A DNA stretch of 64,000 nt from an uncultured Opitutia bacterium (GTDB taxonomy: Bacteria; Verrucomicrobiota; Verrucomicrobiia; Opitutales; Opitutaceae): the NCBI GenBank assembly GCA_903859715.1, contig CAIONS010000068.1:62001-126000 (forward strand), given 5' to 3'. The notes beneath the pieces were generated by a model. That model did no database searches. It saw only the letters and a list, made by a program, of their open reading frames with translations, and had not been told where the DNA came from. A program made the position numbers and the translations under genes. Positions 58,815 through 62,761 of the stretch are shown in pieces (positions within the stretch are counted from its first letter, which is position 1; every line of letters begins with the position of its first letter).

Positions 58815-59938
58815 GCCACGTCCCGGTCCCGCCCGAACTCCACGCCGTCATTCCCGCTTTTCCGCTGGAGGGCCGGCTGGTATCCGCCGCCCCGCACGGC
58901 AGCGGGCACATCAACGAGACCTACGCGGCAGTCTTTGCCACGGGGTCGGGTCAGCGCCGCTACATCTTCCAGAAGGTCAATCACCGCATTTTCAAGGACG
59001 TGCCGGCGCTGATGGACAACGTGCGGCGCGTGACGGCGCACGTCGCGACCAAGGTCCGCGCCACCGCGGGCGAGGCGGCGGCGGCCCGGGTGCTCACGCT
59101 GGTCCCGGCGCGCGATGGCCGGGCGTTCGCGCAGGATGCCGGCGGCGGTTTTTGGCGGGTATATGATTTTATCGAGGGCGCCCACACGGTGGACCGCGTG
59201 ACGAACGAGGCGCAGGCCCGCGAGGCGGCGGGGGCGTTTGGCGAATTCCAGGCGCAGCTGGCTGACCTGCCGGGCGGGCGGCTGCACGAGACGATTCCGA
59301 ATTTCCACCACACCCGCAGCCGCTTCGAGGCGTTGCGCCGCGCCGTGAAGGAAGACTCTGCGCAGCGCGCCGCCGGGGTGCAGGCCGAGATCGATTTCGC
59401 CTTTGCCCACGAAGCCGACAGCGACGTGCTGCTCACGCTGCTGGCGCGGGGCGAGATCTCCGAGCGGGTCACGCACAACGACACCAAGATCAACAACGTG
59501 ATGCTCGACGACACGACCGGCCGCACGGTGGCCGTGATCGATCTCGACACGATCATGCCCGGCCTGCCGCTCTATGATTTCGGCGAGATGGTCCGCACGT
59601 CCGCGAGTTCCACGATGGAGGACGATCCCAACCCGGCGAACATGCATGTGCTGCTGCCGCTTTTCCGGGCCCTGGTGGAAGGTTACCTCGGCTCGAAAGT
59701 GGGCGGCGTGCTGAATGCCGTTGAACGGGTGCACCTCGGCTTTGCCGGCCAGCTCATGACGTACGAGAACGGCGTCCGTTTTCTTACCGACTACCTGCAG
59801 GGCGACACCTACTACAAGATCAAGCATCCGCGCCACAACCTGGAGCGGTGCCGCACGCAGTTCGCGCTCGTCCAGAGCATTGCGGATGCGCAGGCTGAGA
59901 TGAGCGCGATCATCGCCGAAGTTTCCGGCCGCCCATGA
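58811..59938 (+). CDS. Aminoglycoside phosphotransferase-fold sugar kinase (NahK-like)
   Basis: A 375-aa kinase. Early residues GSGHINETYAA replace the usual glycine loop, followed by FQKVNHRIFKDVPALMDN. The catalytic loop is THNDTKINNVMLD and the metal Asp lies in VAVIDLDTIMPG. This matches N-acetylhexosamine 1-kinase relatives, which phosphorylate GlcNAc or GalNAc at C1. It would make the sugar-1-phosphate used by the nucleotidyltransferase upstream. It overlaps both neighbours by 4 bases. Confidence 0.9.
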   Translation: MSHVPVPPELHAVIPAFPLEGRLVSAAPHGSGHINETYAAVFATGSGQRRYIFQKVNHRIFKDVPALMDNVRRVTAHVATKVRATAGEAAAARVLTLVPARDGRAFAQDAGGGFWRVYDFIEGAHTVDRVTNEAQAREAAGAFGEFQAQLADLPGGRLHETIPNFHHTRSRFEALRRAVKEDSAQRAAGVQAEIDFAFAHEADSDVLLTLLARGEISERVTHNDTKINNVMLDDTTGRTVAVIDLDTIMPGLPLYDFGEMVRTSASSTMEDDPNPANMHVLLPLFRALVEGYLGSKVGGVLNAVERVHLGFAGQLMTYENGVRFLTDYLQGDTYYKIKHPRHNLERCRTQFALVQSIADAQAEMSAIIAEVSGRP

Positions 59939-60789
59939 AATTCTCCCGTCCCGACGCCGATGTTTTTATTCCCGAGCCTGCGGGTGTCACCCCGGAGCTG
60001 GCGCTGGCGCGGACGACGCACCTGTGCGTGATCGCGCACCAGGACGATATCGAGATCAACGCGTATCCCAGCGTGGCTGACTGTTACGGCCGGCCGGACA
60101 AATTTTTCACCGGCGTGGTGGTGACGAATGGCGCGGGTTCACCCCGTGCGGGCCCCTATGCCGCCCACACGGATGCGCAGATGCAGGAGGTGCGCCGTGA
60201 GGAGCAGCGCGCCGCCGCGCGGCTCGGAAAGTACAATCTGCAGCTGCAGCTGGCGCATCCCAGCGCGGACGTGAAGCAGTCGGATCACGCCGGCGTGCGC
60301 GCCGATCTGGCGGCAATCTTTGCCGGCTGCCGGCCCGAGGTCGTTTATCTTCATCAGCCGGCGGACAAGCACGACACACATGTGGCGGTGCTGCTGCGCT
60401 GTCTCGAAGCGCTGCGTTCCCTGCCGGCGGTGCAGCGGCCGCGCCGGGTGCTGGGCGTCGAGGCGTGGCGTGGACTGGACTGGCTCGGCGACAACGAAAA
60501 GGTCCCGCTCGATTGCAGTGGACATCCGGAACTCGCCGTGCCGCTGATGAAGGTGTTCGATTCCCAGATCGCCGGCGGCAAGCGATACGACCTCGCCGCC
60601 ATGGGCCGCCGCGAGGCCAACGCCACGTTTCATACGTCGCATGCGACGGACAAGTTCACGTCGATTGCCTGGGCGATGGATCTTACGCCGCTAGTGACAG
60701 ACGACAAACTGAGCGTGGCGGAGTTCGCACTTGGCGCCGTCGACAGGCTGCGGGCCGACGTGGCGGCGCGGATCGCAAAGTTGATGTAG
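59935..60789 (+). CDS. PIG-L family deacetylase
   Basis: A 284-aa zinc-dependent de-N-acetylase of the PIG-L/LmbE family. The metal motif is CVIAHQDDIE (His-x-Asp-Asp), and the third ligand and substrate region are HQPADKHDTHVAVLLR. It is the fourth glycan gene here and overlaps the kinase gene by 4 bases, so the operon probably handles N-acetylated sugars. The stop TAG overlaps the start of a family B-like sequence. Its last ten codons are repeated at 61518-61547 with two synonymous changes and one Val/Ala change. Confidence 0.92.
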   Translation: MKFSRPDADVFIPEPAGVTPELALARTTHLCVIAHQDDIEINAYPSVADCYGRPDKFFTGVVVTNGAGSPRAGPYAAHTDAQMQEVRREEQRAAARLGKYNLQLQLAHPSADVKQSDHAGVRADLAAIFAGCRPEVVYLHQPADKHDTHVAVLLRCLEALRSLPAVQRPRRVLGVEAWRGLDWLGDNEKVPLDCSGHPELAVPLMKVFDSQIAGGKRYDLAAMGRREANATFHTSHATDKFTSIAWAMDLTPLVTDDKLSVAEFALGAVDRLRADVAARIAKLM

Positions 60790-60793
60790 GGCG
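60760..60793. repeat. Direct repeat flanking the ORF6N gene, left copy
   Basis: This is the 3' end of the deacetylase gene (GGCGGCGCGGATCGCAAAGT onward to TAGGGCG). The right copy at 61518-61551 differs at only a few positions. The two lie 758 bases apart and bracket the ORF6N gene. Confidence 0.85.
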
Positions 60794-60960
60794 AGGCCAG
60801 CGGCCAGCATCTGCCGGAGGTTGCCCGGGAAACCCGGTCGCACGTTAAACTCGGAGGTGAAACTTGGAGCCTGTACCAAAGGACAGGGGACGGCCGGTTG
60901 CTTGGCTGGAACAGATTCCTGATTCTCGGCTATACGAGACCTTTCAGACCAACTGACTCC

Positions 60961-61515
60961 ATGCCGAGAAACACCAGCCCCGTCTCCAGCCTCGCGATTC
61001 CTGTGCCCATGGGGCATTACATCCTGACGCTTCGGGGTCAGCGTGTGATCTTAGATTCGGATCTCGCCTCCCTTTACGGTGTGACCACCAAGCGGCTGAA
61101 CGAGCAGGTTCGGCGTAATGCGGCGAAATTTCCGGGGGATTTCATGTTTCGGCTGAACGCCAAAGAAGCAAAGCACTTGGCGGCTTTAAGGTCGCAAAAT
61201 GCGACCTTAAAGCAGGGCCGGCACCGAAAATACCTGCCGTATGCCTTTACCGAGTTTGGCGCCATACAAGCCGCGAATGTCTTGAACAGCGCCGGGGCCA
61301 CACGGATGAGCGTGGAAGTGGTGCGGACGTTCGTTGAACTTCGGCATATGCTGGCATCCCATGAAGCGCTGGCGGGGAAACTTGCTGAACTCGAGACCCG
61401 GGTCGGTGCCCATGATGAACAGCTGACGGCCATCATTGAAGCCATCCGCGAACTTGCGGTGCCTACAGGGCCCGAGCATGACCGCAGGATTGGATTCCAT
61501 CCCGACAATCGCTGA
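60961..61515 (+). CDS. ORF6N domain-containing DNA-binding protein
   Basis: A 184-aa protein. The ORF6N domain (about residues 20-105) has the usual RGQRVILDSDLASLYGV, RLNEQVRRNAAKFPGDFMFR and KYLPYAFTEFGAIQAANVLN. A coiled segment follows (AGKLAELETRVGAHDEQLTA). ORF6N proteins are of phage or poxvirus-type origin and bind DNA; many bacterial copies are scattered singletons. The start is ATG 60961. Its stop lies 2 bases before a duplicated copy of the PIG-L gene end, as if inserted. Confidence 0.9.
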   Translation: MPRNTSPVSSLAIPVPMGHYILTLRGQRVILDSDLASLYGVTTKRLNEQVRRNAAKFPGDFMFRLNAKEAKHLAALRSQNATLKQGRHRKYLPYAFTEFGAIQAANVLNSAGATRMSVEVVRTFVELRHMLASHEALAGKLAELETRVGAHDEQLTAIIEAIRELAVPTGPEHDRRIGFHPDNR

Positions 61516-61517
61516 GC

Positions 61518-61551
61518 GCGGCGGCGCGGATCGCCAAATTGATGTAGGGCG
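61518..61551. repeat. Direct repeat flanking the ORF6N gene, right copy
   Basis: Reads in frame as the last residues of the deacetylase (AAARIAKLM and stop), begins 2 bases after the ORF6N stop, and runs straight into a family B palindrome. Confidence 0.85.
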
Positions 61552-61644
61552 GGGTCGCTGACCCCGCCTTGCCCAGGCAAGGCGCCTCAGCCGGAGGATC
61601 CGACCTACTGTCCAAACCGGCGGGGTCAGCGACCCCGCCCTACA
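61543..61644. repeat. Palindromic element family B, copy 4
   Basis: The arms TGTAGGGCGGGGTCGCTGAC and GTCAGCGACCCCGCCCTACA match copies 1 and 2 closely, but the core (GGCGCCTCAGCCGGAGGATC) has diverged. The right end contains the CTA that is the minus-strand TAG stop of the next gene. Confidence 0.88.
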
Positions 61645-62761
61645 ACGTCACCACGCGCTGGTCGCGGTGGGAGGTCAGGGCGGCGGCGAAGATTTCGTGG
61701 TGGGCCACGGCTTCGTCGGGAGTGGCGCAGCCGAACTTGTTGCCGAGCACGCCGGCACGCTCGGCGAGGAAGGCGGCCCACATCTGCTGGAGAATATCGG
61801 GAAAGCCGGGCTCAAAGATCGCGCCGGTGATGGTCTTGAAGGGTGTACCGAAACCAAGGTCGGTTTTCTCCCACCATTGCTCCTTGTCGCGGCGGTAGGT
61901 CCAGAAGGTCTTCGGCTCCTTGGTTGAGAAGCGCACGCCGCGGTCGGTGCCGAGCACCTCGATGATCCAGGTGTTGGTCTCGGTGGGCGCGAGCCGCTTC
62001 ATCTCCAGGGTGAGCGGAGTCGCATGGCCGGCGATCTCGGCGCTGCAGTGGAGTGTGGCGTTGTCCCAAGTATCGCACGGCGCGGTGCCGCCTTTGCCGT
62101 CGGGCCGCGTGGTATAGATCTTCTGAAGTTGGGCGAAGACGTTCGTGGGCTTCCAGCCCAGCCGCAGGGGCACGTGCGCGACGTGCATCCCGAGGTCGCC
62201 CATCACGCCGATCTCACCGCAGAATTTGGACTGGCGCTTCCAGTTGATGGGCTTGGTCGGATCGAGATCGCTGGAGTGGAGAAACGCGCAGCGGGCCTCG
62301 ATCACGCGGCCGAGCGCGCCACTGGCCGCAAGCTGCCAGGCGCGGTGCACACCCGGCAGGAAGGGAAACTCGGAGGAGACGCGCACAAACCGGCCGAGTT
62401 TTTTCGCCTCGTCGCGCACGCGGCGCGCGGCCGCGAGATCGATGCCGAAGGGTTTCTCAGCGAGGAGATCCTTCCCGGCCCGCAGGACGTCGAGGTAGAT
62501 TTCCTCGTGCAGGTGGTGCGGCACGGCCGCGTAGACGACGTCGACGTCATCGAGGGCCAGCAACTCGCGGTGGTTTGTGACGAAATGCTTCACGCCGGGC
62601 ACCTGCCGGAACCAGTCGAGCAGGCCGGGCTGCAGGTCGCAGACGGCGGTGAGCTCGGCGCGGACTGGGAAATCCACGAGCGCAAACCAGCGGGCGAGCG
62701 CGCTGGCGGCCTCGCGGCCCATCAGGCCGCCGCCGATGATGCCGATGCGGACGGGATTCAT
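61640..62761 (-). CDS. Gfo/Idh/MocA family oxidoreductase
   Basis: A 373-aa sugar dehydrogenase-like protein. The Rossmann loop is RIGIIGGGLMGREAASA. The Lys motif is LLAEKPFGID (about 98), and the active-site segment GEIGVMGDLGMHVAHVPL carries the conserved His. It is closest in layout to inositol- and glycan-related members. The stop TAG derives from the family B palindrome at its 3' end. The class I aldolase gene lies upstream on the same strand after about 115 bases. Confidence 0.92.
   Translation of the reverse strand: MNPVRIGIIGGGLMGREAASALARWFALVDFPVRAELTAVCDLQPGLLDWFRQVPGVKHFVTNHRELLALDDVDVVYAAVPHHLHEEIYLDVLRAGKDLLAEKPFGIDLAAARRVRDEAKKLGRFVRVSSEFPFLPGVHRAWQLAASGALGRVIEARCAFLHSSDLDPTKPINWKRQSKFCGEIGVMGDLGMHVAHVPLRLGWKPTNVFAQLQKIYTTRPDGKGGTAPCDTWDNATLHCSAEIAGHATPLTLEMKRLAPTETNTWIIEVLGTDRGVRFSTKEPKTFWTYRRDKEQWWEKTDLGFGTPFKTITGAIFEPGFPDILQQMWAAFLAERAGVLGNKFGCATPDEAVAHHEIFAAALTSHRDQRVVTL

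Follow-up and report, generated by a model that had tools for sequence, protein, structure and literature searches.

Long target duplication with restriction-modification genes was reportedly described by Nobusato et al. in 2000 and by Furuta et al. in 2010. In the minimal mobile elements of Neisseria, a constant pair of conserved genes encloses cargo that varies from strain to strain. Two papers describe insertion with long target duplication for restriction-modification genes (PMC1643837, PMC3031569). Homology-facilitated illegitimate recombination with displaced gene parts occurs in the T6SS immunity arrays of V. cholerae (PMC5361080), and prophage e14 supplies the 3′ end of icd and leaves a displaced end, the duplicated icd end comprising 163 bp (PMC6379469).

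ORF6N genes are widespread and little studied in bacteria. They were found in 116 of the 387 genomes sampled in the phylum, and a full-text search of open papers found few that mention ORF6N, none of them in its title or abstract. Here we describe an ORF6N gene in a 64,000-nucleotide stretch of the draft genome of an uncultured Opitutia bacterium (genome G000), called the window below. This small gene of DNA-binding type was inserted into the chromosome right where a neighbouring gene, a PIG-L family deacetylase gene, ends, and a slightly different second copy of the PIG-L end remains beyond the ORF6N gene.

Compared with the descriptions of long target duplication (PMC1643837, PMC3031569), the locus is similar in that direct copies of the target, long and variable, flank an accessory gene (here a 38-nt repeat and a fragment of a Gfo/Idh/MocA gene, Gfo) and in that the relatives G002, G004, and G006 have sites free of the insert. 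It differs in that the cargo is a solitary ORF6N gene instead of a restriction-modification system and in that the copies in several relatives resemble different alleles. As in the V. cholerae arrays (PMC5361080), the module would have entered at a conserved anchor and the old gene part would have been displaced downstream; unlike the toxin-immunity modules there, the ORF6N gene lies beside the ends of housekeeping genes. The model that we propose would combine long target duplication, homology-facilitated illegitimate recombination, and gene-end replacement of the e14 type. We know of no report of gene-end duplication of either kind with ORF6N cargo.

Results

Structure of the ORF6N locus

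The features of the locus are listed in Table 1. The ORF6N gene scored 100.3 bits for PF10543, above the curated cut-off of 27.8, and its GC3 (0.654) was below that of the PIG-L (0.793) and Gfo (0.872) genes. It was the sole Pfam match in the insert; another four open frames that overlap or adjoin it gave none. Unlike a transposon or insertion sequence, the insert contained no Pfam transposase match and no terminal inverted repeats (none of the 10 inverted pairs in 60700-61600 connects the insert ends).

Table 1. Coordinates of features at the PIG-L/ORF6N/Gfo locus (positions in the window)
Feature	Position	Strand	Basis
PIG-L family deacetylase gene, intact, ends ...AARIAKLM*	59935..60789	+	Pfam PF02585, E 2.1e-14; 93% aa identity to G005
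Left copy of 38-nt repeat: PIG-L end, stop, 7 more bases	60759..60796	+	Repeat search; core-pattern counts
Degenerate Gfo/Idh/MocA gene fragment, start of ORF6N leader, collinear with 61763-61852	60790..60880	-	Local alignment versus shuffles
ORF6N-domain gene, 184 aa (ATG start chosen; frame open further upstream)	60961..61515	+	PF10543, E 7.7e-29
Palindrome within ORF6N coding region, stem 14, loop 3, encodes SQNAT stretch	61183..61213		Palindrome scans
Right copy: displaced PIG-L gene end and start of REP-type repeat	61517..61554	+	Repeat search; codon comparison
Paired-palindrome REP-type repeat, arms 61543-61568 and 61619-61644, 100% complementary	61543..61644		Inverted-repeat search; related copies in G000
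Gfo/Idh/MocA oxidoreductase gene, intact, convergent with PIG-L	61640..62761	-	PF01408, E 7.2e-18

The arrangement resembles that of e14 and icd with its 163-bp duplicated end (PMC6379469). A recombinase from elsewhere might have inserted an ORF6N unit at an attachment site, the unit restoring the gene end with its own version. In contrast to the prophage, the insert in the window consists of one recognisable gene without a Pfam match to an integrase or recombinase. A common core among the gene-end junctions was not seen by eye, and we consider such site-specific integration at gene ends distinctly improbable.

The two copies of the direct repeat that brackets the ORF6N gene are 38 nt long, identical at 34 positions, and spaced 758 nt apart. 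Each contains the final PIG-L codons with the stop codon, followed by the edge of a REP-type repeat. This agrees with the original prediction of a twofold PIG-L end plus repeat edge at that distance, except that the predicted ten codons are nearer eight plus the stop. The coding part common to both copies reads GCG GCG CGG ATC GC(A/C) AA(G/A) TTG ATG TAG (AARIAKLM*). Both coding differences, GCA/GCC and AAG/AAA, were confirmed in frame as the predicted synonymous third-position changes, within only 27 coding bases. The right copy begins 1 to 2 bases past the ORF6N stop codon, as had been noted, because this TGA occupies 61513-61515. A 24-nt core pattern with up to 3 mismatches matched twice in the window and never in 100 shuffles, and alignment of flank against flank around the ORF6N gene scored 28.0, compared to 15.0 for the best of 30 shuffles. 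A 19-nt core of the gene end matched the 3.18-Mb genome perfectly at just two places, the repeat copies; among the imperfect matches listed, one had 1 mismatch, one had 2, and 19 had 3.

The possibility, named beforehand as a refutation, that the duplicated segment is a common dispersed repeat proved correct for its right-hand part (TGTAGGGCGGGG...) and incorrect for the gene-end part, which falls outside the REP-type family. The right-hand part is a member of a family of paired palindromes of roughly 100 bp dispersed in G000. At least 58 of at least 60 matches of a 901-base query in G000 map to it; this count is a lower bound, as 40 of 120 candidates were scored, and several matches represent the two arms of one element. 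Copies of the REP-type repeat occur at many other places in G000, and in the window, both Gfo and the displaced PIG-L end take their stop codons from the TGTAG edges of this repeat. Since G000 is a draft of 71 contigs and the right half of the repeat is such a dispersed element, a duplicated gene end might be mimicked by coincidence or by a mis-joined contig. Against this explanation, which we regard as highly improbable, perfect matches of the coding half are limited to these two in the whole genome, four sites distinguish the copies, and other assemblies show a similar footprint, among them G381 with its two contigs.

A Gfo fragment in the ORF6N leader

The start of the ORF6N leader aligned collinearly with the Gfo gene with a score of 25, whereas none of 200 shuffles exceeded 18. 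Alignments with seven Gfo genes of relatives scored 21 to 26 (null maxima 16 to 20). The best-matching stretch is PGFPGNLRQMLAAGL versus PGFPDILQQMWAAFL. The order is therefore PIG-L, Gfo piece, ORF6N, PIG-L end, repeat, Gfo, and two imperfect copies of the gene junction flank the ORF6N cargo.

This order could result from insertion with long target duplication, in which the convergent PIG-L/Gfo junction received an ORF6N fragment while a target of at least about 330 bp, from the PIG-L end into Gfo, was duplicated, the left copy later losing its middle and both copies drifting. Such an event would explain both the PIG-L end on the right and the Gfo fragment on the left, and it has a precedent in restriction-modification genes (PMC1643837, PMC3031569). 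A single duplication predicts equal divergence of the two parts, whereas the Gfo piece differed at 14 of 48 positions and the PIG-L end at 4 of 38 (p = 0.06). We consider this explanation possible, if somewhat unlikely. The Gfo piece may be older than the duplicated PIG-L end.

The same site in related genomes

The convergent PIG-L/Gfo pair was found without ORF6N in G002, G004, and G006, with gaps of 152, 59, and 152 bp, respectively. In the nearest relative, G005 (93% PIG-L identity), the gap holds a 684-aa open frame and in G003 a 335-aa open frame; on visual inspection, the former resembles a membrane protein and the latter a sugar kinase. Thus, the search for empty sites that had been proposed as a check was successful in three relatives, with other genes in the gap of two more, and the ORF6N gene is an insertion into the PIG-L/Gfo pair, as predicted together with the second gene-end copy. 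The sites without ORF6N belong to other species of the genus, not to other strains. A likeness to minimal mobile elements therefore holds across species only: the same gap is occupied by ORF6N in G000 and by other genes in G003 and G005, and it has no cargo in G002, G004, and G006. ORF6N was matched in one of 11 other genomes of the genus (G009). No remnant of PIG-L or Gfo scored above shuffles at the site of G002 to G006, so that among the six genus sites G000 alone exceeded shuffles for a PIG-L or Gfo piece.

A mosaic test of the PIG-L 3′ end against genus members revealed no clear step; its simple ungapped comparison holds just for genes that do not differ in length, and the row of G009, whose gene is six bases shorter, is meaningless. 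The two PIG-L end copies in the window were more alike than either was to the relatives in the comparison. Because the copies are nearest each other and the PIG-L gene shows no clear mosaic step, a local duplication fits the window equally well.

Recurrence of the footprint at other ORF6N genes

Close direct repeats bracketed 16 of 119 ORF6N genes, the window included, compared to 32 of 12,804 control placements. A bracket was defined as a direct repeat of at least 25 nt and at least 44 bits with arms within 250 bp, and controls were placements of the same size elsewhere in the same windows. Set 1 consisted of 62 windows with 63 ORF6N units, mostly from the order (the window, L010, and a selection of 60 from the profile matches). 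Set 2 consisted of 60 windows with 61 units from the phylum, namely the first 60 matches by E-value with a start above 4000 that were not already used. Three of 63 and two of 61 units, respectively, were left out for too little flank. In set 1, 6 of 60 units were bracketed (11 of 8203 placements, p = 1.3e-9) and in set 2, 10 of 59 (21 of 4601 placements, p = 1.7e-12); these p values are only indicative because the control placements overlap. For the comparison of flank against flank, four loci were dropped before counting as duplicates and another four because their flanks were short. No close bracket was found for 103 of the 119 ORF6N genes.

The check for gene-end duplications at other ORF6N genes yielded copies of five genes, named by Pfam: clpB (L125, with ORF6N convergent to it), citrate synthase (L135, 5′ end), carB (L186), leuS (L225), and a glucuronyl-esterase-like gene (L156), the last detected when the arms were allowed to lie as far as 400 bp away. 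The remaining brackets were dispersed repeats, non-coding, or not identified. Six of the 10 brackets in set 2 were located at longer genes (289 aa or more), and that of L187 was a weak CT-rich match. At L153, L134, L149, L169, and L214, ORF6N is apparently bracketed by dispersed intergenic repeats instead of gene ends. A bracket at L182, formed by a whole-gene copy of an antiporter-type gene (72% identical), was dropped as a likely paralogue pair. The bracketing repeats ranged from 29 to 216 nt and their copies differ, and a fixed-length target-site duplication was rejected. The recurring element is homology at a gene end or repeat. In the comparison family PF05635, one of 30 genes was bracketed (by a 25-nt repeat), compared to 17 of 119 ORF6N genes by the same test; the excess was not significant (p = 0.12) and specificity for ORF6N is therefore not established.

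Gene-end alleles at carB, leuS, and other loci

In one genus and its near relatives, the 3′ end of carB (L186, L303 to L322) is a gene-end hotspot, behind which methylase, HNH, Mrr, or ORF6N genes follow. Eight of 21 carB loci (G647 and relatives) contained a second piece of the 200-residue carB end with E below 1e-4. The cargo behind carB was ORF6N in G647 and G730; G726 had DNA methylases there, G721 and G740 had HNH nucleases, and G741 had Mrr. The footprint is thus not exclusive to ORF6N, and a gene end, here carB in one genus, can serve as a repeated landing place for defence-like cargo. Decayed ORF6N genes lie directly after carB, which is in plus orientation, in L318 (after 2381) and L320 (after 1728).

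The start of the remnant within the carB query varied between genomes, e.g., residues 86, 113, 159, and 174 of 200, which argues against integration at a fixed attachment site. The remnants of G647 and G730, as an exception, begin at the same carB codon, as site-specific integration would predict, and the two genomes have a common ORF6N-carB joint despite diverged 5′ parts of their ORF6N genes. The crossover point at carB, which would be constant in an element of the e14/icd type, thus varies apart from these two relatives.

Seven carB remnants in six genomes were compared with the gene of their own genome and with other carB genes. The G730 remnant reached 81.5% to its own carB versus 92.6% to that of another species. 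The corresponding values for own gene and best other were 85.3 versus 94.4 in G726, 83.6 versus 87.2 in G747, 73.8 versus 82.7 for the second remnant of G725, and 93.9 versus 96.2 in G740, where the displaced copy is uncertain, as the contig begins there. The G647 remnant (96.0) and the first G725 remnant (92.3) were nearest to their own carB. In G726, 33 codons differ between the carB copies, all synonymously, and the G747 remnant contains an in-frame stop codon, as expected of a decaying copy. Differences between gene-end copies lay mostly at third positions: 35 of 52 in seven ORF6N pairs (p = 6e-7), 16 of 28 without G730 (p = 0.008), and 111 of 149 in nine pairs when the carB copies of G726 and G747 were added; two boundary codons beyond the aligned repeat, one each in L225 and G747, are part of these counts.

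In G381 (L156), the intact copy ends HTPPPAAAK, like that of G758 (HTSPPAAA...), and the remnant ends NAPSEIK; both look like natural gene ends. The two leuS ends of G518 were nearest each other and have two states in common versus the sister species G532, the remnant having changes of its own; the ORF6N sandwich was absent from the stretch seen in G532.

These results bear on long target duplication in both directions. The leuS copies of G518 and the carB copies of G647, each other's nearest, are in agreement with it. In none of G730, G726, G747, and G740 are the carB ends mutual nearest relatives, and this and the third-position bias argue against it. As the ends in G730 and G381 look like different alleles, recombination with foreign DNA is favoured there over plain target duplication; the other bracketed cases fit either. 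Given these mixed outcomes, the relatives show both pictures, the unlike-allele kind being clear in some. Recombination with a related allele, which had been suggested for the window, is thus supported in relatives by G730, G381, and the third-position bias, and the 27 coding bases of the window itself are compatible with duplication, too.

Proposed mechanism

We propose, with a probability of roughly 0.5, that ORF6N arrived in the PIG-L/Gfo pair through homologous recombination that used the gene end as its anchor. The incoming DNA would stem from a related lineage and carry its own PIG-L end and an already eroded Gfo piece beside ORF6N. Its PIG-L end would pair with the resident PIG-L gene, and its far end would join just upstream of the resident stop codon. 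The outcome would be an intact PIG-L gene with the incoming end, followed by ORF6N and by the old end of the resident, pushed downstream as a remnant, so that the target gene would stay intact throughout. We infer that the event in the window was of this kind and followed this order of steps, with a homologous joint at the PIG-L side of the insert. At the left junction, a similarity of 7 to 8 bases (GGCGAGG/GGGCGGGG) suggests that a deletion may have followed there later. Once formed, the sandwich could spread by ordinary recombination, because the gene end flanks the cargo on both sides. The footprint suggests how single genes without their own transposase or mobility functions could move and leave the target gene working.

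Palindromes in and near ORF6N genes

A REP-type palindrome does sit at the junction in the window, and gene-end palindromes had been envisaged as docking sites of ORF6N genes. As a rule, this idea was rejected because what the two copies have in common at carB, leuS, clpB, and citrate synthase is coding gene sequence.

Palindromes also occur inside the ORF6N genes themselves. Internal stems of at least 11 were present in 78 of 124 ORF6N units. Among 124 synonymous-codon shuffles a single one had such a stem, and among 302 other windows of 550 nt two did. In the fetched windows, the core TCRCANNNTGYGA with a stem of at least 9 occurred 80 times inside ORF6N genes (76.5 kb), five times within 500 bp of them, and not at all in 852 kb elsewhere. 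Our literature searches found no paper on an ORF6N-internal palindrome. The internal palindrome is probably a binding site of the ORF6N product. Solitary ORF6N genes might even be one-gene mobile cassettes that have an internal palindrome bound by their own product, enter gene ends, and hand the host gene a working end without a transposase or integrase of their own, a general view that we consider improbable.

The stems are often 11 to 19 long around TCRCANNNTGYGA, and the outer stems vary yet stay paired. The palindrome was also seen in L010 (about 1655-1728) and many other ORF6N loci; L088 and L089 have a stem of 7 only. Beyond Verrucomicrobiota, it was present in contigs named Candidatus Solibacter (stem 13) and Mycobacteriaceae (stem 11) and, on a Parabacteroides plasmid (L382), both inside the ORF6N gene (stem 9) and upstream of it (stem 11); it was absent from two other plasmids examined. 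About five palindromes were counted by eye in roughly 250 bases of the decayed ORF6N gene of L320. Palindromes of the same family are located upstream of some ORF6N genes in an operator-like position (leaders of L382, L186, L135, and L127), and the L186 leader contains three imperfect palindromes in a row.
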